Assembly (NCBI GenBank): GCA_905234125.1 | Contig: CAJOGQ010000014.1 | Span: 1-53,898 of the forward strand | Reading direction: 5' to 3' | Source: an uncultured Bacteroidaceae bacterium | GTDB lineage: Bacteria; Bacteroidota; Bacteroidia; Bacteroidales; Bacteroidaceae | Length of the DNA: 53,898 nt | The notes under the pieces: model-generated | Told to the model about the DNA's origin: nothing | Seen by the model: only the letters and a program-made list of their open reading frames with translations | Databases searched by the model: none | Position numbers and translations under genes: made by a program | Shown here: positions 1,085-27,155 of the stretch, one piece after another | How the letters are laid out: the number at the start of each line of letters is the position of its first letter | Position numbering within the stretch: position 1 is the stretch's first letter

Positions 1085-1119
1085 TATACTCTTAACTCTA
1101 AACCCTAAACTCTTAACTA
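1085..1119. repeat. Degenerate 7-bp tandem array, five units
   Basis: Five consecutive 7-mers: TATACTC, TTAACTC, TAAACCC, TAAACTC, TTAACTA. The array overlaps the kduI stop codon and fills nearly the whole gap before the methyltransferase start. On the transcribed strand it reads as GAGTTTA/GAGTTAA units, the same family as the longer array at 50898-50988. Confidence 0.75.
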
Positions 1120-2094
1120 TCGAATGTCGCTCACCTTGATGACATCCTTGTCGTTATAGTCGAGGTTCTCGCCTGCCATGCCCCAGATGAACGTATAATA
1201 ATAGGTGGCAGAGGCGGCGTGGATGGACCATTCGGGCGACATGATGCCCTGCTCGTTGTGGAGCCAAACGACACGGCTCTCCTGAGGTTCACCCATGATG
1301 TGGCTGATGGTCTGACCCTCGGGCAGATTGAAGTAGTAGTATGCCTCGATGCGACGGCCATGCGTGTGAGGTGGCATCGTGTTCCATACCGAACCTGGCT
1401 CCAACTGCGTCAAGCCCATCTGCAACTGGCAAGGTCCCTCTTCGAGCGCGGTGTTGACAATCAGTTGATAGATGGTGCGTTTGTTCGACTCCTCCAACGA
1501 ACCCAAGTTGCGCAACACCGTAGCCTTGAGCGACTGCACATTACCACTCTTGCGACCATCGAGGGTGATCCACTGGGTCTTGTAGTGCTGATGGGCAGTG
1601 GCAGAGTTGATGTAGAACTTGGCTGGCTTCTGCGGGTCTTTCGAGCGGAAGATGACTTCCTGATTCGACTCGATGCCATTTCCCTTCTTGTCCTTGCCAA
1701 GATTGCCACGACCGATGTAGAGGGCTTCACGCTCGCTCAGCGGATATTCCACTCCATCCACAATCACCACGCCGTCGCCAGCCGTGTTGATGATGCCGAT
1801 TTCGCGGTTGTGCAGGAAGTAAGGAGCGCGCAACTCAGGGAAGGCCTCCAGTTTCAAGTCCTTGGTGACAGGCATGGCGCCACCAAAGATGAAGCGGTCG
1901 TACATCGAGTAGGTGAGGTTGATCTGGTCAGCCACCATCACCTTCTCCATCACGAAGCGGTCGCGAAGGGTCTGCGTGTCGTAGTGCTTCACATCGTCAG
2001 GATGGCAAGCCTTCTGAAAATTCACATGCATCTGAGCATTCATGCTCATAGCGCCCATCAACAGGGCAAAACTAAAAATACTTTTCTTCATCAT
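1117..2094 (-). CDS. kduI: 5-keto-4-deoxyuronate isomerase (KduI) with signal peptide
   Basis: KduI converts 5-keto-4-deoxyuronate, made from the unsaturated ends left by pectin or glycosaminoglycan lyases, into 2,5-diketo-3-deoxygluconate. The body aligns with Escherichia coli KduI from about residue 25 onward. The zinc-site motif [15 protein letters not shown] (two His and a Glu) and the later His in [10 protein letters not shown] are intact, as is the ending [11 protein letters not shown]. Unlike the cytoplasmic E. coli enzyme, it begins [21 protein letters not shown], which looks like a type I signal peptide, so a periplasmic location is inferred. The start was set at the paired ATG at 2094; frames further upstream would enter the preceding permease gene. 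It follows that gene by 5 bp and is surely co-transcribed with it. Confidence 0.9.
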
Positions 2095-2099
2095 AATGA

Positions 2100-3536
2100 T
2101 TATGCTTTTAATTGTTTTTCTTCTTTCACAATGCGCATGCGGTTCCACAACACCATGGCCACAGTGATGAGGGTCAGCACACCCATGCCGATCCATTGGA
2201 GGCTCTCCACGGCCTTGTAGATAGTCCATCCGAAGAAAGAAGATGCAAAGTCGAGGGCACCGGCCTGGAAACCTTCTGGAATCTTGGCCGACTTGTCGCC
2301 TGTCTGCTCAAAAACAGTGTTGGCGGCCTGTGTGAACCAACCAGCCATGTCGGTGACGAAATAGAGACCGATGGTCAGCGCCACCAAACCCACGATGAAC
2401 GTCTTCACCACATTTCCCTTCGTGTAGGGTAAAACCATTACAAACACATAGAACATACCGGCCAGCGATGCCAACGGCAAGAACTGATTGCCTGGCAAGA
2501 GAATGGCCACGATGAGGGTGACGGGGATGAGCAGGAGAGAGACAACCAACGTGGTGGGATGACCAATGACCAGTGCTGGCGACATGCCAATGTACACCTT
2601 CTTGCCCTTGAACTTCTTCTTCACCACCTCCTGCGTCTTTTCTGAAATGGGCATCAAACCATCGATGAAAAGCCTCGTGATGCGAGGAATCAATTCCATC
2701 ACGGCACCCATCGTCACGCCTAAGAAGAGAACCGACTTCACGATACTCATCACTGCATCCGTAGTAGATTCAAAACCAGCAGCATAAGCGCTGAAGTTAG
2801 AGAAATGACCGAAATGGGAAAATGCGCCAATCAAGGCACCCACGATGACACCCAGCACGATGGGTTCGCCCAGCACACCAAATTTCTTCTTCAAGCCCTC
2901 AGCATCGATGTCCAGCTTGGAGAAACCAGGGATGCGGTCGAGCAACCAGTTGATACCGATGGCAATCGGGGTGAAGCTCTGGCAGAAAGGCTGAGGGATG
3001 CTGATGCCGTCCATGTTCTCGTAGTAACCCTGAAACTTCTTCGCCGTCAGGTCGGCCATCACCAACGTGATGATGTAGCAGACGATAGCGGCAAAATAGC
3101 CCCACAGCATGCTGCCGTCCATCACAAAATAAGCCACAGCCCCAATGAACGCAAAGTGCCAGTAGTTCCACAGGTCGATGTTCACCGTACGAGCACACTT
3201 CGTGACGAGCAGCAAAAAGTTGATGCCCAAACAGATGGGAATAATCAGCGCACCTACGGCCGTGTTGTAAGCCACAGCGGCAGCAGCAGGCCACCCCATG
3301 TCGAAGACCTTCAGATCGAGGTCAAAAATCTTGGAAATGTTGTCGAGCGGCGTGTCGAAGTTGGTCGTGAGCAGAGCCGTCACAATGCCCAATCCCACAA
3401 AGCCGACACCCACATAGAGGCCGCTCTTGAGCGACTTGCCAAACTTCATGCCAATGCACAAGCCAATGATGGTGAAAAGAATCGGCATCATGACCGATGC
3501 ACCCAATTGGATAATGTAAGCAAAAACTTGTTCCAT
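2100..3536 (-). CDS. Lone PTS galactitol-type EIIC permease (GatC family)
   Basis: A 478-residue multi-pass inner-membrane protein homologous to GatC/SgcC, the EIIC subunits of galactitol-type phosphotransferase systems. Landmarks shared with E. coli GatC are the opening LG.(S/T)VM.PI, the stretch [26 protein letters not shown], and [10 protein letters not shown] followed by LLPGNQFLP. About ten to twelve hydrophobic segments are visible. No EIIA, EIIB, HPr or enzyme I gene is in the window, and the PTS is uncommon in Bacteroidetes, so it may act as a phosphorylation-independent carrier. The 5-bp gap to kduI suggests it moves an unsaturated uronate product. The substrate is inferred from context only. 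The promoter element at 3565-3572 drives both genes. Confidence 0.88.
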
Positions 3537-3564
3537 ATTAGTTAGTTGTTGATTAATTTTTGGG

Positions 3565-3572
3565 CAAAGTTA
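3565..3572 (-). promoter_or_regulatory. -7 promoter element for the permease-kduI operon
   Basis: On the minus strand this reads TAACTTTG, matching TAnnTTTG, 28 bp upstream of the permease start codon. Confidence 0.6.
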
Positions 3573-13445: not shown

Positions 13446-13543
13446 AGTGAAAAGTGAAGAGTGAAAAGTAAAAAAATCTAAATTTCTCTTCTTCAAATGG
13501 CAAGTAAAATAGATTTTTCACTTTTCACTCTTCACTTTTCACC
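13446..13543. repeat. Inverted pair of TTTTCAC heptamer arrays in a divergent promoter
   Basis: The left arm (from 13449) and right arm (ending 13543) are near-perfect inverted copies. Each contains four 7-bp units of the type TTTTCAC, TTTTCAC, TCTTCAC, TTTTCAC and ends at an internal TAGAT. Each arm points at its own -7 element (13429-13436 leftwards, 13551-13558 rightwards). The same arrangement recurs at 22957-23059. Confidence 0.8.
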
Positions 13544-13550
13544 TAAAATC

Positions 13551-13558
13551 ACTACCTT
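13551..13558 (+). promoter_or_regulatory. -7 promoter element for the GH35 gene
   Basis: TACCTTTG, starting 43 bp after the first base of the TAGATTTTT motif and 34 bp before the GH35 start codon. Confidence 0.65.
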
Positions 13559-13592
13559 TGTGGTGCGATTATCACCAAACCTATTTATATTT

Positions 13593-15938
13593 ATGAAGAA
13601 AATCATTTGTTTGTTCTCCCTGCTGATGGCCTTGACGGCCACACCCGCTTTCGCACAGAAAGCCCAGGGAAGTTTCGAGACAGGCAACGGCACGTTCCTG
13701 CTGAATGGCAAACCCTTCGTCGTGAAGGCTGCCGAGATTCATTACCCCCGTATTCCCAAGCCTTATTGGGATCACCGCATCAAGATGTGCAAGGCATTAG
13801 GCATGAACACCGTGTGCATCTATATCTTCTGGAACATCCACGAACAACGTGAGGGCGAGTTCGACTTCACGGGCAACAACGACGTGGCTGAGTTCTGCCG
13901 ACTGGCTCAGAAAAACGGCATGTACGTCATCGTGCGCCCTGGTCCCTACGTTTGCGCCGAGTGGGAGATGGGTGGTCTGCCCTGGTGGCTCCTGAAGAAG
14001 AAGGACATCAAGCTCCGTGAGCGTGACCTCTACTTCATGGAACGCGTGAAAATATTCGAGCAGAAGGTGGGCGAACAGCTGGCTGGTCTGACCATTCAGA
14101 AGGGCGGACCCATCATCATGGTGCAGGTGGAGAACGAGTATGGCTCGTATGGTGAGGACAAACCCTACGTCTCTGAGATTCGTGATTGTCTGCGTGGCAT
14201 CTACGGGAAGGAGTTAGCGCTCTTCCAGTGCGACTGGTCGTCCAACTTCGAGAAAAACGGTCTTGATGACCTCACTTGGACGATGAACTTCGGTACGGGC
14301 GCCAACATCAACGACCAGTTCCGTCGCCTCGGCGAACTTCGTCCCAACGCTCCCAAGATGTGCTCCGAGTTCTGGAGCGGATGGTTCGACAAGTGGGGCG
14401 CTCGTCATGAGACCCGTCCTGCCAAGGACATGGTCGATGGTATGGACGAAATGCTCTCCAAGGGCATCTCCTTCTCTCTCTACATGACCCACGGCGGAAC
14501 ATCCTTCGGACACTGGGCAGGTGCGAACTCTCCTGGCTTCGCTCCCGACGTCACTTCGTATGACTACGATGCCCCCATCAACGAGTATGGTCTTGCCACA
14601 CCCAAGTTCGATGAGCTCCGCAAGATGATGGCCAAATACAACGACGGCAAGGCTCTCCCCGCAGTGCCCAAGGCTCCCATGCCCATCATCACTGTGCCAA
14701 AGTTTGAACTGAAGGAGTTTGCGCCCCTCAGTTCCGGCATCGACAAGGAAGATGAGGGCGAACTCAAGACCTTCGAGGAGATGGACATGGGCTGGGGCTC
14801 CATGATCTATGCCGCCATGCTGCCAGAGATTCCCGTGCCAAGCACCCTCACCGCCGACGTTCACGACTTCGCCCAGGTGTTCATCGGTGACAAGTACATC
14901 GGAAAAATTGACCGCGTCAAGAACGAGAAATCCCTCACCCTGCCCCCCACCAAGCGCGGCGAGGCACTCACCATCCTTGTCGAAGGTATGGGTCGCATCA
15001 ACTTCGGACGCGCCATCAAGGACTTCAAGGGAATTGTGAGCGATGTAACCCTCACCGCCGATGTCCCCATCGATGGCATTGGCACGAAGCCCGACACCGA
15101 AATCACCATCAAACCAAAGGCGTGGAACCTCTGCACCATCCCCGACGACTATGCCACCGCTGTCAAAGCTCTGTCAGCAACGAAGCCCGAAGACCACACG
15201 TGGGAAGGTCGCGGCTACTATCGTGGCTACTTCAACCTCACCAAGGTGGGTGACACCTTCCTCAACTTCGAGACTTGGGGCAAGGGACAGGTCTATGTGA
15301 ATGGTCACGCGATGGGTCGCATCTGGTCGATTGGACCGCAGCAAACACTCTACATACCCGGATGCTGGCTGAAGAAGGGACAAAACGAAGTCATCGTCCT
15401 CGACGTCGTAGGTCCCAAGGAAGCTGTCGTGTGGGGTCAGGCTGAGCCTGAGCTCAACAAGCTCCAGCTGGAGAAGAGCAACAAGCACAACAACATCGGC
15501 GACAAGCCCGACCTCAACAGCGCCACACCAGCCGCCACAGGAGCCTTCAACGGAGGCAATGGCTGGCAGACCGTTAAATTCAATGGACAGAAGAAGGGTC
15601 GCTACCTCGCCATCGAATGTCTCTCCACTCAGAAGGACGGCGACCGCGTAGCCATCGCCGAGCTATATCTGCAAGGTGCTGACAGCAAGCGCATCTCCCG
15701 TGAGCCTTGGACGACCAAGTACACCAACTCTGAGGAGGAGAACGGAAACCACACCGGCGACAAGGTTTACGACCTGCAGGAATCTACCTACTGGCAGACC
15801 GAGAAGAGCGCAACCCTACCCCACCTCCTGGTCATCGACCTTGGCAGTGAGCAAACCGTCTCCGCCCTCGAATACCTTCCCCGTGCCGAACAGGGAGCTC
15901 CCGGAAGCGTGAAGAACTACAAGATTTACCTCTATTAG
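13593..15938 (+). CDS. Exported GH35 beta-galactosidase with C-terminal F5/8-type domain
   Basis: A 781-residue exported glycoside hydrolase of family 35 that should release terminal beta-galactose from plant or host glycans. After the signal peptide (MKKIICLFSLLMALTATPAFA) the catalytic barrel begins FLLNGKPFVVKAAEIHYPRI. The acid/base Glu is E182 in VQVENEYGSYG and the nucleophile is E259 in MCSEFWSGWFDKWG. Jelly-roll domains follow, with WGKGQVYVNGHAMGRIWSIG typical of GH35. The last 130 residues (SATPAATGAFNGGNGWQT through LLVIDLGSEQTVSALEYLPR) look like a CBM32-type discoidin domain. The longer frame from 13497 crosses the promoter and repeat, so the ATG before the signal peptide was chosen. 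It stands alone with its own promoter and terminator. Confidence 0.93.
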   Translation: MKKIICLFSLLMALTATPAFAQKAQGSFETGNGTFLLNGKPFVVKAAEIHYPRIPKPYWDHRIKMCKALGMNTVCIYIFWNIHEQREGEFDFTGNNDVAEFCRLAQKNGMYVIVRPGPYVCAEWEMGGLPWWLLKKKDIKLRERDLYFMERVKIFEQKVGEQLAGLTIQKGGPIIMVQVENEYGSYGEDKPYVSEIRDCLRGIYGKELALFQCDWSSNFEKNGLDDLTWTMNFGTGANINDQFRRLGELRPNAPKMCSEFWSGWFDKWGARHETRPAKDMVDGMDEMLSKGISFSLYMTHGGTSFGHWAGANSPGFAPDVTSYDYDAPINEYGLATPKFDELRKMMAKYNDGKALPAVPKAPMPIITVPKFELKEFAPLSSGIDKEDEGELKTFEEMDMGWGSMIYAAMLPEIPVPSTLTADVHDFAQVFIGDKYIGKIDRVKNEKSLTLPPTKRGEALTILVEGMGRINFGRAIKDFKGIVSDVTLTADVPIDGIGTKPDTEITIKPKAWNLCTIPDDYATAVKALSATKPEDHTWEGRGYYRGYFNLTKVGDTFLNFETWGKGQVYVNGHAMGRIWSIGPQQTLYIPGCWLKKGQNEVIVLDVVGPKEAVVWGQAEPELNKLQLEKSNKHNNIGDKPDLNSATPAATGAFNGGNGWQTVKFNGQKKGRYLAIECLSTQKDGDRVAIAELYLQGADSKRISREPWTTKYTNSEEENGNHTGDKVYDLQESTYWQTEKSATLPHLLVIDLGSEQTVSALEYLPRAEQGAPGSVKNYKIYLY

Positions 15939-16060: not shown

Positions 16061-17085
16061 TTAGTTGTTCTCAGGACGGAGCTGACGAACCACCTCAGCA
16101 GTACGCCACATCTCAGAGTCGTGAAGAGCAGCGAGCTCCTTCTCCAAACCTACGCGATAGTCAGGCTTAGAGTTAGCGTCGATAGAGATCTGAGCCTCAT
16201 GACCTGACTTCACAGAAGCATAGAGCTTTTCAACAACGGGCTTGATCGCATCGTGGAACGGACCCATCCAGTCGAGGGCACCGCGCTGTGCAGTCGTAGA
16301 GCAGTTAGCGTACATCCAGTCCATACCCTTCTGAGCGAAGAGAGGCATGAGTGACTGAGTGAGCTCTTCAACTGTCTCGTTGAATGCCTCAGATGGAGCA
16401 CCTCATACTGAGCGAGGAGCAGACCCTGGATGGCACCCATCAATGAACCACGCTCGCCAGTGAGGTCAGAAGTGGCCTCGCGCTGGAAAGTGGTCTCGAA
16501 CAAGTAACCAGAACCGATGCCGATACCAAGAGCGAGAGTGCGGTCAAGAGCTTTGCCCGTAGCGTCCTGATATACAGCATAAGAAGAGTTCAAACCACGA
16601 CCCTCGAGGAACATGGTGCGGAGTGATGTACCAGAACCCTTAGGAGCAACCATGATTACGTCGATGTCCTTAGCAGGAACACAACCTGTGCGGTCGTTCC
16701 AAGTGATAGCGAAACCATGAGAGAAGTAGAGAGCCTTACCAGGAGTGAGGTACTTCTTCAGCGTGGGCCATACAGACATCACGGCTGCGTCTGAAAGCAG
16801 ACACATCACGATGGTGCCCTTGTCGGCAGCCTCTTCGATGGAGAAGAGTGTCTCGCCAGGAACCCAACCGTCCTTGATTGCCTTCTCGAAAGTCTTGCCC
16901 TGGCGCTGGCCAACAATCACGTTGAAACCATTGTCACGCAGGTTGCAAGCCTGACCAGGACCCTGTACACCATAACCAATCACTGCGATGGTCTCGTCTT
17001 TGAGAATCTCACGAGCCTTCTCGAGTGGGAATTCTTCACGTGTCATTACCTCTTCGATAACGCCACCAAAATTCATTTTTGCCAT
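16061..17085 (-). pseudogene. ilvC: Ketol-acid reductoisomerase, frameshifted by a ~19-bp deletion
   Basis: IlvC is the NADPH-dependent reductoisomerase of valine, leucine and isoleucine synthesis. The N-terminal part (MAKMNFGGVIEEVMTREEF, IAVIGYGVQGPGQACNLRDN, GQRQGK, SDLTGERGSLMGAIQGLLLA) reads in one frame to residue 230, ending YEVL at 16396. The rest (SEAFNETVEELTQSLMPLF through AEVVRQLRPENN) continues in another frame from 16393 to 16061. Family members of this type are about 347 residues and carry seven residues of the form RANGH(T/S)P here. The two parts total 340, so 19 nt appear lost. CTCC at the junction (complement of 16395-16398) could be a collapsed direct repeat. Read as is, the gene gives a 291-residue product with a nonsense tail. 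A true mutation and an assembly or consensus error cannot be told apart. Confidence 0.85.
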
Positions 17086-23581: not shown

Positions 23582-26029
23582 ATGAAACAAATCATCCTAA
23601 CGGCATTGATGCTGTCCGCATCAGTGCTGGCTTCGGCCAATCATCCTGACTCTGTGTGGGTGCGTCCAGATGTGAAGAACGGTACGCGCGACATGCAGAT
23701 AGCCTATTCTATCGACAAAAAACACTGGACACACGTGCCCTGCAACCTCTTCGAGAGCGACTACGGCACATGGGGCAGCGAGAAGAAACTATATTACCCC
23801 GTCCTCTCCTACGACGGCAAGACCTACCGCACTGTCTTCATCCCCAACCTCAAGAACAACCAGATAGCCATCACCGAGTCAGAGGATTTCGCCCTCTGGA
23901 CGCCACAGGACTATCCCTACGTCGCTAAAAGCGAATTTCAGAAGATTGTGCCCACGCAGGAAAGGGCCACCCAGACCAACGTCATCCGTGTGCCCTACTC
24001 TGCCATCCAGAACCTCCTGACCAAGAAGATGCGTGCCGACCGCAACGGAGCATGGGAACGCGACAACTTCATCGCATCGGGTGCCAACATCGCCAACAGA
24101 AACGAACCCATTGAGGCGACGCTCACCGTCAACTGGGACGACCGCAAGGCCATCTCGCCCGACCTTATGGGCATCTTCTTCGAGGACATCAGCTATGCCG
24201 CCGACGGAGGTCTCTATGCTGAACTGATTCAGAATCGCGACTTTGAATACACCGCCGACGACCACCGCGGATGGAATGCGCAGACGGCTTGGCGACTCGA
24301 AGGCGAGGGCACCACGTGGACTATCGAAACGCAGGCGCCCATCCACAAGAACAATGTCCACTACGCCACACTCAAGACCACTAAGCCCGGTGCCCGCCTC
24401 ATCAACGAAGGTTGGGACGGCATCACCCTCCAGAAGGGCAAGAAATACGACCTCTCCCTTTTCACTCGAGGTGCCGCTTCCTTCCTCGTGAAGTTGGTGA
24501 GCAATGGCTCTCCCATCGCCTCTGTCACCCTCAAAGCCACCAAAGAATGGCAACAACAAAAGAAAACCATAATTCCCTCATCCTCAGCAGAAAAAGCAGA
24601 ACTTGTCATAGAACCACTTGAAGCAAGCAACATCTCTCTCGACTTCATTTCACTTTTTCCACAAGAGACCTTCAAGGGTCACGCCAACGGTCTGCGCAAA
24701 GACCTCGCCGAGGTGATTGCCGACCTCCATCCACGCTTCGTCCGCTTCCCTGGTGGATGTGCTTCACATGGTCAGGGCATCGACAACATCTACCACTGGC
24801 AAGCCACCGTGGGCGACCTCTGGGAGCGTGAACCCGCCATGAACATCTGGAGCTACCACCAGACTCGTGGACTCGGTTTTCACGAGTATTTCCAGTTCTG
24901 TGAGGACATCGGCGCTGAACCTCTTCCCGTCCTCGCCGCAGGCGTTCCCTGTCAGAACTCTTGGAAAGGCGGAGCCGGTCAGCAAGGCGGTATTCCTTTC
25001 GAGGCTGACCTGAAGGGAAAGCCATCGCCCTACACCTACATGGGCAAGCCTCTCACGATGGAGAGCTACCTACAGGAACTGCTCGACCTCATCGAGTGGG
25101 CGAACGGTGATGCAAAGACCTCCGAACTCGCCAAGATTCGTGCCAAGGCTGGCCACCCCAAGCCCTTCAACCTCAAGTATCTCGGTATTGGCAACGAAGA
25201 CCTCATCGGCGAAACTTTCCTGAAACGCTACCGTTTCCTTATCGACGGCATCCGTAAGGCGCATCCCGAAATCACCATCGTCGGCACAGTCGGTCCCTTC
25301 TGGGAAGGCAGTGACTATGAGTACGGTTGGCGCGAGGCCAAGGCCAAGAACATCCCTATCGTCGACGAGCACTACTACAACGGCATCGGCTGGTACTTCC
25401 ACCACCGCGACTTCTACGATGACTACGATCGCGAGGGCACCAAGGTCTATCTCGGCGAATGGGCATCGCGTGGCAACAACGTCGTCAACGCCCTCATCGA
25501 GGGAGCCTACCTCGCCAACGTGGAGCGCAACGCCGATGTGGTGGTCATGTCGTCCTACGCCCCACTCCTCGCCAAGGAAGGCCACACGAGCTGGAACCCC
25601 GACCTCATCTACTTCAACAACAAGGAGGTGAAGCCCACCGCCAACTACTACGTCCAGCGCATCTTCGGACAGAACTCCGGCGACGAGTACATTTTTGCCG
25701 ACCTGCAGGTCAACGGTGGCAACGACATCAGCGAACGCATTGACCACTCCGTCGTGAAGGACTCCAAGACCGGCGACCTCATCATCAAGGTCGTCAGCCT
25801 CCTGCCCAAGGCATCCAAGATGACGCTCAACCTCGGCGACGAAGCCCTCCAAGGCTACAGCACCACCGCCGAACTGACCGAACTCTCCAAAGCGAACGAG
25901 CCTGACACACAGCGGGAATGGGACAAAAACGAGACCCGCTCCATCACCGTCGGCAGTCAGTTCACGCTCGACGTGCCTGCCTACTCCATTTCTGTAATAA
26001 GAATCAAAAAGGAAATTAAAAAGAATTAA
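23582..26029 (+). CDS. Exported GH51 alpha-L-arabinofuranosidase
   Basis: An 815-residue exported enzyme expected to remove alpha-L-arabinofuranose side chains from arabinoxylan or arabinan. The signal peptide is MKQIILTALMLSASVLASA. Residues 20-120 form an extra N-terminal module (SVWVRPDVKNGTRDMQIAYS, YYPVLSYDGKTYRTVFIPNL) that resembles one or two blades of a five-bladed propeller glycosidase. The GH51 body starts near 180 (ISPDLMGIFFEDISYAADGG, NRDFEY), has RFPGGCASHGQGIDNIYHW, the acid/base E539 in YLGIGNED and the nucleophile E626 in VYLGEWAS, and ends in the usual beta domain. A carbohydrate-binding CBM4-like insert near 225-365 is suggested by RLINEGWDGITLQKGKKYDL. Confidence 0.92.
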   Translation: MKQIILTALMLSASVLASANHPDSVWVRPDVKNGTRDMQIAYSIDKKHWTHVPCNLFESDYGTWGSEKKLYYPVLSYDGKTYRTVFIPNLKNNQIAITESEDFALWTPQDYPYVAKSEFQKIVPTQERATQTNVIRVPYSAIQNLLTKKMRADRNGAWERDNFIASGANIANRNEPIEATLTVNWDDRKAISPDLMGIFFEDISYAADGGLYAELIQNRDFEYTADDHRGWNAQTAWRLEGEGTTWTIETQAPIHKNNVHYATLKTTKPGARLINEGWDGITLQKGKKYDLSLFTRGAASFLVKLVSNGSPIASVTLKATKEWQQQKKTIIPSSSAEKAELVIEPLEASNISLDFISLFPQETFKGHANGLRKDLAEVIADLHPRFVRFPGGCASHGQGIDNIYHWQATVGDLWEREPAMNIWSYHQTRGLGFHEYFQFCEDIGAEPLPVLAAGVPCQNSWKGGAGQQGGIPFEADLKGKPSPYTYMGKPLTMESYLQELLDLIEWANGDAKTSELAKIRAKAGHPKPFNLKYLGIGNEDLIGETFLKRYRFLIDGIRKAHPEITIVGTVGPFWEGSDYEYGWREAKAKNIPIVDEHYYNGIGWYFHHRDFYDDYDREGTKVYLGEWASRGNNVVNALIEGAYLANVERNADVVVMSSYAPLLAKEGHTSWNPDLIYFNNKEVKPTANYYVQRIFGQNSGDEYIFADLQVNGGNDISERIDHSVVKDSKTGDLIIKVVSLLPKASKMTLNLGDEALQGYSTTAELTELSKANEPDTQREWDKNETRSITVGSQFTLDVPAYSISVIRIKKEIKKN

Positions 26030-26057
26030 AAGGAAGCCCCTCAAACCCCTCCAAGTT

Positions 26058-27155
26058 ATGATGAAATACTGCCTTGGGCTGCTCATGTCGCTCTTTGCCA
26101 GCCAGTGCGTCCACTCTCAACACGACGCTGGGAAGAACACCAACATGGACATCGTCCACCCCACCGACCCAAACATCCAGTACATCGGGCGCATCGACGA
26201 CTCCGACCCCATGCACATCGTCTTCACCTACCCCGGCGTGCAGATACGCACAGGCTTCACCGGCACATCCCTCGACATGATGTGCAAGCTCCACAGCGGT
26301 TACTTCATGGCTGAGATTGACGGCGGAGAACCCTTCAAGATTTCCTTCCTCGGCAACACCATCGTCCGCCTCGCCAGCGAACTGCAAGACGGCACTCATC
26401 AGGCCATCGTCACCTACATAGGCGAAGGCTACGAAACCCTGCCCGAGTTCCACGGATTCTTCGTCGATAAGGGCAAGACCCTCGCTCCGGCCACTCCCCT
26501 GCCCACACGCAAGATAGAGTTCATCGGCAACTCCATCACCTGTGGCTACGGTATCGAGGCCAACAGCGAGGCCGAGCACTACGACGAAAAGACCGCCAAC
26601 TACTACTACACCTACGCCGCCCGCACCGCCAGAGCCCTCAACGCCCAGGCCGTCGTCATCGCCCGCAGTGGCATCGGTGTCTATCGCAGTTACAACGGTC
26701 CGAAAACGGGCGACATTGTGAACATGAACACCGAGTACCCCAACACATTATTGTATAATGACAAGGTGGCGTGGGACTTCTCGCGCTACACGCCCGACCT
26801 CGTCTGCATCAACCTCGGCACCAACGACACCTCCACCCAGGGTGCTGACTCCGTCCTCCTGCTCCAAGGTTTCAAGCGACTCTACCAGCAGGTGCGCAGT
26901 CACTACCCCAAGGCCAAGATTCTCCTCCTCAGTGGGTGCATGATGAACGGCCAGCAACTCCAGTCAGCCAAGTGCGCCCTCGACGCTACCGCTGACTACG
27001 CCCACAACCAAGGCGATGCAGAAGTCTATCGCTTCGACTTCACGCCCCATGACGGCTCCCTCGGCTACGGTGCCGACTGGCATCCCTCCATGCGCCAACA
27101 TGAGAAGATGGCCAACGAACTCATTCCTTACCTGCAGAAACTGATGAACTGGTGA
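26058..27155 (+). CDS. CE2-type acetyl esterase (GDSL family)
   Basis: A 365-residue exported esterase with the two-domain build of carbohydrate esterase family 2, which removes acetyl groups from xylan and related glycans. After a signal peptide (MMKYCLGLLMSLFASQCVHS) comes a jelly-roll domain (residues 40-145: YIGRIDDSDPMHIVFTYPGV, FTGTSLDMM) and then the SGNH domain with Ser159 in IEFIGNSITCGYG, Asn in CINLGTND, and the His of GADWHPSMRQHEKMA. The pairing with GH51 in one operon suggests joint removal of arabinose and acetate from arabinoxylan. It is the last gene before the terminator at 27183-27206. Confidence 0.88.
   Translation: MMKYCLGLLMSLFASQCVHSQHDAGKNTNMDIVHPTDPNIQYIGRIDDSDPMHIVFTYPGVQIRTGFTGTSLDMMCKLHSGYFMAEIDGGEPFKISFLGNTIVRLASELQDGTHQAIVTYIGEGYETLPEFHGFFVDKGKTLAPATPLPTRKIEFIGNSITCGYGIEANSEAEHYDEKTANYYYTYAARTARALNAQAVVIARSGIGVYRSYNGPKTGDIVNMNTEYPNTLLYNDKVAWDFSRYTPDLVCINLGTNDTSTQGADSVLLLQGFKRLYQQVRSHYPKAKILLLSGCMMNGQQLQSAKCALDATADYAHNQGDAEVYRFDFTPHDGSLGYGADWHPSMRQHEKMANELIPYLQKLMNW

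Follow-up and report, generated by a model that had tools for sequence, protein, structure and literature searches.

Why would a KduI that carries a signal peptide be encoded directly behind a lone permease of the phosphotransferase system (PTS)? The question is raised by a stretch of 53,898 nucleotides (hereafter the window; contig CAJOGQ010000014.1 of assembly GCA_905234125.1) from an uncultured Bacteroidaceae bacterium, in which two minus-strand genes, gatC and kduI, follow one another (Table 1). Elsewhere KduI is a cytoplasmic enzyme. A preliminary description of the window had proposed that unsaturated uronates are isomerised in the periplasm and that the product enters through an EIIC carrier which works independently of the PTS. 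The sequence comparisons reported here favour this outline, which is the best-supported reading of the pair and is partly supported; location, transport, cargo and energy source are our deductions from sequence.

Table 1. Features of the gatC-kduI unit in the window
Feature	Position	Strand	Evidence
GatC-type EIIC permease, 478 aa	2100..3536	-	PF03611, 254.6 bits; GatC 9u82 profile match; predicted model
Possible -7 box TAACTTTG serving gatC and kduI	3565..3572	-	pattern match, weak
KduI, 325 aa	1117..2094	-	NCBIfam NF002091, 348.5 bits; closest solved chain 9kd0 (E 1.1e-120)
KduI signal peptide, residues 1-20, predicted cut before Q21	2035..2094	-	translation, read by eye
Codons of H243, H245, E250 and H292, presumed metal ligands	1219..1368	-	invariant in 22-row alignment

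Residues 26–325 of the downstream gene product match the KduI equivalog model NF002091 well above its cut-off of 250 bits. H243, H245, E250 and H292, which by comparison with E. coli KduI we take to be the metal ligands, do not vary in the alignment. The residues ahead of this core form a leader of the Sec/SPI type, with basic, hydrophobic and small-x-small parts and Gln at +1, as judged by eye and by a home-made rule rather than by SignalP; the rule asks for a basic start, a hydrophobic core and small residues before the cut, and rewards Gln. Gln is the residue expected after the signal-peptide cut in Bacteroidetes (the Q-rule; accessible text of PMC5837995). The mature KduI would presumably be periplasmic. 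The preliminary description had thus read both the leader and the ligands correctly, and the check which it proposed for a second, cytoplasmic kduI yielded none: a single KduI was found in the window's genome (assembly 84% complete).

The upstream gene is separated from kduI by the 5 bp (2095–2099) reported earlier. Its product is a member of the EIIC-GAT family, exceeding the PF03611 cut-off of 24.2 bits tenfold, and is matched by the profile of the galactitol permease GatC 9u82 [E 2.2e-94]. It scores 369.3 bits with TIGR00827, the galactitol PTS permease model, and so stays under the 542.2 cut-off for that narrower group. A predicted model of the protein (mean pLDDT 81.3) matches only the GatC 9u82 and UlaA folds at E ≤0.001, and superimposes on 9u82 with a TM-score of 0.74 at 29% identity. 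The positions mutated in E. coli GatC were considered as a source of PTS independence; the profile of the clade has Cys (S184) and Tyr (F340) there, which is suggestive at best, and this explanation was set aside. Another hit, to the phage family phrog_31009, points to GatC relatives in 18 records labelled as phage, at less than 60% identity.

The start of the permease has a TAACTTTG box, a match to the -7 promoter consensus, 28 bp ahead of it. That both genes are served by one promoter, as had been claimed, is likely rather than proven, because the pattern is frequent in the window (27 occurrences versus 17.3 expected).

An EIIC of this family would ordinarily be expected to have phosphorylating partners. 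The window was said to encode no EI, HPr or EIIA, and the absence extends to the whole genome (84% complete assembly), in which profile searches for these three gave no match and the complete set of EI, HPr, EIIA and EIIB was not found; EIIB was represented by one fragment at 21.6 bits, below the cut-off. There is consequently no complete galactitol-type PTS in that assembly. We carried the same searches to the 79 genomes having a listed adjacent pair, with 14 control genomes of which 6–7 were positive in each search. The EI N-domain, HPr and EIIA were each matched in one genome, always G034, so that 77 of the 78 other pair-bearing genomes agree with that of the window. EIIB was matched in three (strongly in G034, at the cut-off in G146 and below it in G000). 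Six of the negative genomes (G009, G027, G150, G219, G233 and G249) are single contigs. With controls that worked, the searches rule out a PTS hidden elsewhere in the genome for 78 of the 79. The only PTS cluster, comprising EIIB, EIIA, HPr and EI, sits on a 10-kb contig of G034 (C15, L131) whose G+C content is 54.5% versus 48.5% at the pair locus of the same genome, and that contig is perhaps foreign.

The preliminary description had suggested that the synteny of the pair be checked. Within 251 Bacteroidaceae genomes KduI was found in 148 and GatC in 87, the latter at 88 places. At 80 of these places, which we call the pair loci, GatC is immediately followed by KduI in the same orientation, the two alignments being 9 to 256 bp apart; four of the remaining eight adjoin a divergent KduI that also has a signal peptide. 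All told, GatC is next to KduI at 84/88 places, is cut off by a contig end at three and stands apart at one (G182), where it adjoins KduD while the exported KduI is on another contig beside a SusC-like gene. A scan of named genomes gave at least 571 GatC relatives. Among the best 80, kept as named loci (at least four of which duplicate a pair locus), KduI is within about 1.1 kb of GatC in every case, and the record titles are mostly Prevotella, Prevotellaceae and Bacteroidaceae, many from the rumen and including P. ruminicola KHT3. Out of 395 genomes drawn from the class, five have GatC, all of them among the seven Bacteroidaceae drawn; the 388 from outside the family have none. The pair is common to many Bacteroidaceae and not peculiar to the genome of the window.

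Two irregular loci may be recorded. Genome G009 has a second exported KduI (C1:234700–235593, L063) with the same first residues as its GatC-adjacent one (L049) and no GatC beside it. In G041 (C381:29536–30911) an internal TAG splits GatC into two pieces next to an open exported KduI, perhaps a case of decay.

The signal peptide is as constant as the pairing. Our rule finds it in 80/80 KduIs of the pair loci, an outcome in favour of the preliminary description, which had asked for a comparison of homologues, and in 80/80 of the named loci (again the best 80 of at least 571). By eye, a small-x-small site followed by Gln is present at 76/80 pair loci (exceptions L089–L092), and Gln at +1 in 78/80 named loci, the best 80 of at least 571 (exceptions L210 and L214). 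The rule, which rewards Gln, gives 78/80 for each set, and a scripted count for the pair loci gave 63/80, the start being misplaced in several rows; the count by eye is preferred. Since the leader precedes the core at 80/80 pair loci, we regard the KduI start as correctly called and a mis-called start as ruled out. Chance neighbourhood of the two genes is likewise ruled out by the family-wide counts of pairing and signal peptide.

Other KduIs look different. None of 25 class-level KduIs has a signal peptide by our rule, and 16 of them have KduD within 209 bp downstream. In the 18 short Bacteroidaceae KduIs that we compared, KduD follows in the same orientation, at no more than 733 bp in 18/18 and at no more than 114 bp in 16/18; only one of the 18 (L054) is called as having a signal peptide, and there the call comes from reading through sequence that precedes the probable real start. 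In a quick tree of 92 KduIs (L066 and L251 were left out as too short) the 51 exported rows form one branch [SH-aLRT 98]. Several origins of KduI export are not supported by this tree, and the module apparently arose once.

What the pair is for may be judged from its neighbours. We surveyed the 80 pair loci for KduD, KdgK and KdgA at ≥50% identity to the seeds and for GH88, pectinesterase and MFS proteins at ≥35%. KduD is upstream on the same strand at 10/80, same-strand KdgK and KdgA occur at 5/80, and divergent genes for GH88 and pectinesterase at 9/80 and 7/80, respectively. kduD, kdgK or kdgA adjoins the pair in several genera; the fullest arrangement that we describe, in G009, reads SusC-like gene, second outer-membrane-type gene, kdgK, kduD, kdgA, gatC, kduI. 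The presence of these neighbours in some genomes ties the pair to the breakdown of unsaturated uronates. Genome-wide, KduD was matched at E 1e-60 in 78/79 pair genomes, G141 being the one with the pair and no match; in the genome of the window it lies on another contig (C2), away from the pair. GH88/105 proteins, a few of them weak matches, were found in 59/60 pair genomes examined (the exception being G041) and in 9/20 genomes having no KduI [Fisher p 1.7e-7]. Above the cut-off, the genome of the window has three GH88/105 proteins, each of which shows a leader peptide by eye; one follows a PcRGLX-type lyase and another is fused to GH28.

A DUF4861 protein was seen near gatC, next to kduD, in several pair loci (L048, L050, L104, L130 and L268). 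Other genes on the contig of the pair deserve mention. Plant cell wall enzymes are represented in the window by a GH35 beta-galactosidase (13497–15938, plus strand) and by an arabinofuranosidase and, after it, a CE2-type esterase (23582–27155, plus strand). On the minus strand at 16210–17085, near TPP-enzyme and ilvD-type genes, is a possibly shortened ketol-acid reductoisomerase, the match to its C-terminal domain covering only 31 of 144 positions.

Taken together we think it probable that the two genes, gatC and kduI, are a module for taking up unsaturated uronates, in which a periplasmic KduI is combined with a non-phosphorylating GatC. In Bacteroides, the periplasm is where GH88 enzymes set unsaturated uronates free. 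In that compartment, lyases and GH88/GH105 hydrolases that have been exported would yield galacturonate or glucuronate in the 4,5-unsaturated form, which would open there to 5-keto-4-deoxyuronate (DHU), and the signal-peptide-bearing KduI would convert DHU to 3-deoxy-D-glycero-2,5-hexodiulosonate (DK-II). The lone GatC-type EIIC would then carry DK-II, unphosphorylated, over the inner membrane, acting either as a facilitator or as a symporter. In the cytosol KduD would reduce it, with consumption by KduD, KdgK and KdgA pulling transport inward. Several observations count against the DK-II route: KduD is beside the pair at so few loci, GH88/105 is found in KduI-less genomes as well, an ExuT-like MFS protein could be the carrier where it is present, and there are individual exceptions, namely G141 without KduD, G041 without GH88, G182 with the pair separated and G034 with its PTS cluster. 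On balance we would also suggest that a uronate pathway beginning in the periplasm arose a single time in the Bacteroidaceae, with an exported KduI and a dedicated, natural, non-phosphorylating EIIC for the isomerised keto-uronate.

One might equally assume that KduI is periplasmic but that GatC moves something else, such as DHU, a hexuronate or a keto-uronate side-product of KduI, DK-II entering through another carrier, for example the downstream MFS protein. E. coli KduI acts on hexuronates, and an ExuT-like MFS gene indeed follows in the same orientation, no more than 1 kb away, at 22/80 pair loci and at 64/80 named loci (the best 80 of at least 571). The flanks of the other 58 pair loci, that of the window included, give no MFS match (some of these flanks end at contig ends), GatC is constant across the pair loci while the MFS gene varies, and the adjoining catabolic genes, where there are any, include kduD, kdgK and kdgA. 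We consider a different cargo for GatC unlikely, though it has the most to recommend it among the alternatives.

The fold and family of GatC are those of a PTS EIIC, and one could suppose that it still works as a genuine PTS permease, its phosphorylation depending on a donor that went unrecognised or on proteins that fell into the gaps of incomplete assemblies. The full set in G034 and the EIIB matches in G146 and G000 lean that way, but EI, HPr and EIIA occur in that one genome of 79, on a contig of deviating G+C content, and the negatives include six genomes assembled into one contig each; this strikes us as the least probable reading of all. Very unlikely, too, is a KduI that stays in the cytoplasm, its leader being a wrong start call or uncleaved and the pair an ordinary uronate gene set. 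KduI is cytoplasmic elsewhere and its location here is deduced from sequence; against this stand the leader at every pair locus, the Gln after a small-x-small site in nearly all of them and the solved chain 9kd0, which starts at the Gln of the predicted cut. We retain the reading of the pair as an uptake module with a periplasmic isomerase and a PTS-independent carrier.

The module is a candidate for the inner-membrane uptake step of periplasmic unsaturated uronates. Were it confirmed, it would supply the missing inner-membrane step in the use of pectin, and perhaps of glycosaminoglycans, by Prevotella and Bacteroides, would place outside the inner membrane an enzyme thought to be cytoplasmic, and would provide a natural EIIC without a PTS; the label "PTS IIC" in such gut bacteria might then mislead metabolic models. 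The proposal is testable in a named species of the human gut, B. finegoldii, where two pectinesterase genes, the EIIC gene, exported kduI and an MFS gene occur together (in a record labelled as plasmid).

In the open-access journal literature covered by our search we found no description of an exported KduI or of its link with GatC, and as far as that search reached the uptake route is so far undescribed. The accessible part of PMC8072126 mentions kduI, and signal peptides of other proteins. The enzyme itself has a structure. Counted by eye from the Gln of the predicted cut, 9kd0 and the mature exported KduI of B. finegoldii differ at 8 of 287 aligned residues, and its makers would appear to have removed the leader from their construct. 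Since 9kd0 is an exported-type KduI that begins at the predicted cut, others are already studying the enzyme, though not necessarily the route; the structure is of KduI alone and describes no route.

The nearest known gene clusters are the kduI-dhuD (type E) clusters of Bacteroidota (PMC12838403), which, to judge from the accessible part of that paper, share with the module the isomerase family, the pathway step and the bacterial family. In those clusters a reductase follows KduI, and the short KduIs that we compared have no signal peptide; in the module an exported KduI follows GatC. B. finegoldii has both kinds, the short kduI followed by its reductase and DUF4861 being in another record (also labelled as plasmid), and both arrangements are present in P. 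massiliensis as well. In the main text of PMC12838403, so far as accessible, the words "signal" and "PTS" do not occur, a phosphotransferase system being mentioned for disaccharide uptake by streptococci; the paper gives 201 as the number of strains whose kduI is not part of a cluster, and the gatC-kduI module may hide among these.

With the galactitol PTS permease GatC of Leminorella grimontii (9u82) the permease of the window shares family and fold. Unlike it, GatC of the window type lacks EIIA, EIIB, HPr and EI in nearly all genomes, is below the TIGR00827 cut-off and is linked to KduI. That an EIIC of this very family can pass unphosphorylated sugar is indicated by E. coli mutants of GatC and GalABC: according to the accessible parts of these papers, a mutated GatC lets E. 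coli cells deleted for ptsHI take up glucose, whereas wild-type galactitol uptake requires ptsHI (PMC12089948), and GalABC takes up xylose without phosphorylation (PMC10989795). The E. coli facilitators are selected mutants which keep their PTS genes; the Bacteroidaceae module would have come to the same state in nature and kept it for a long time.
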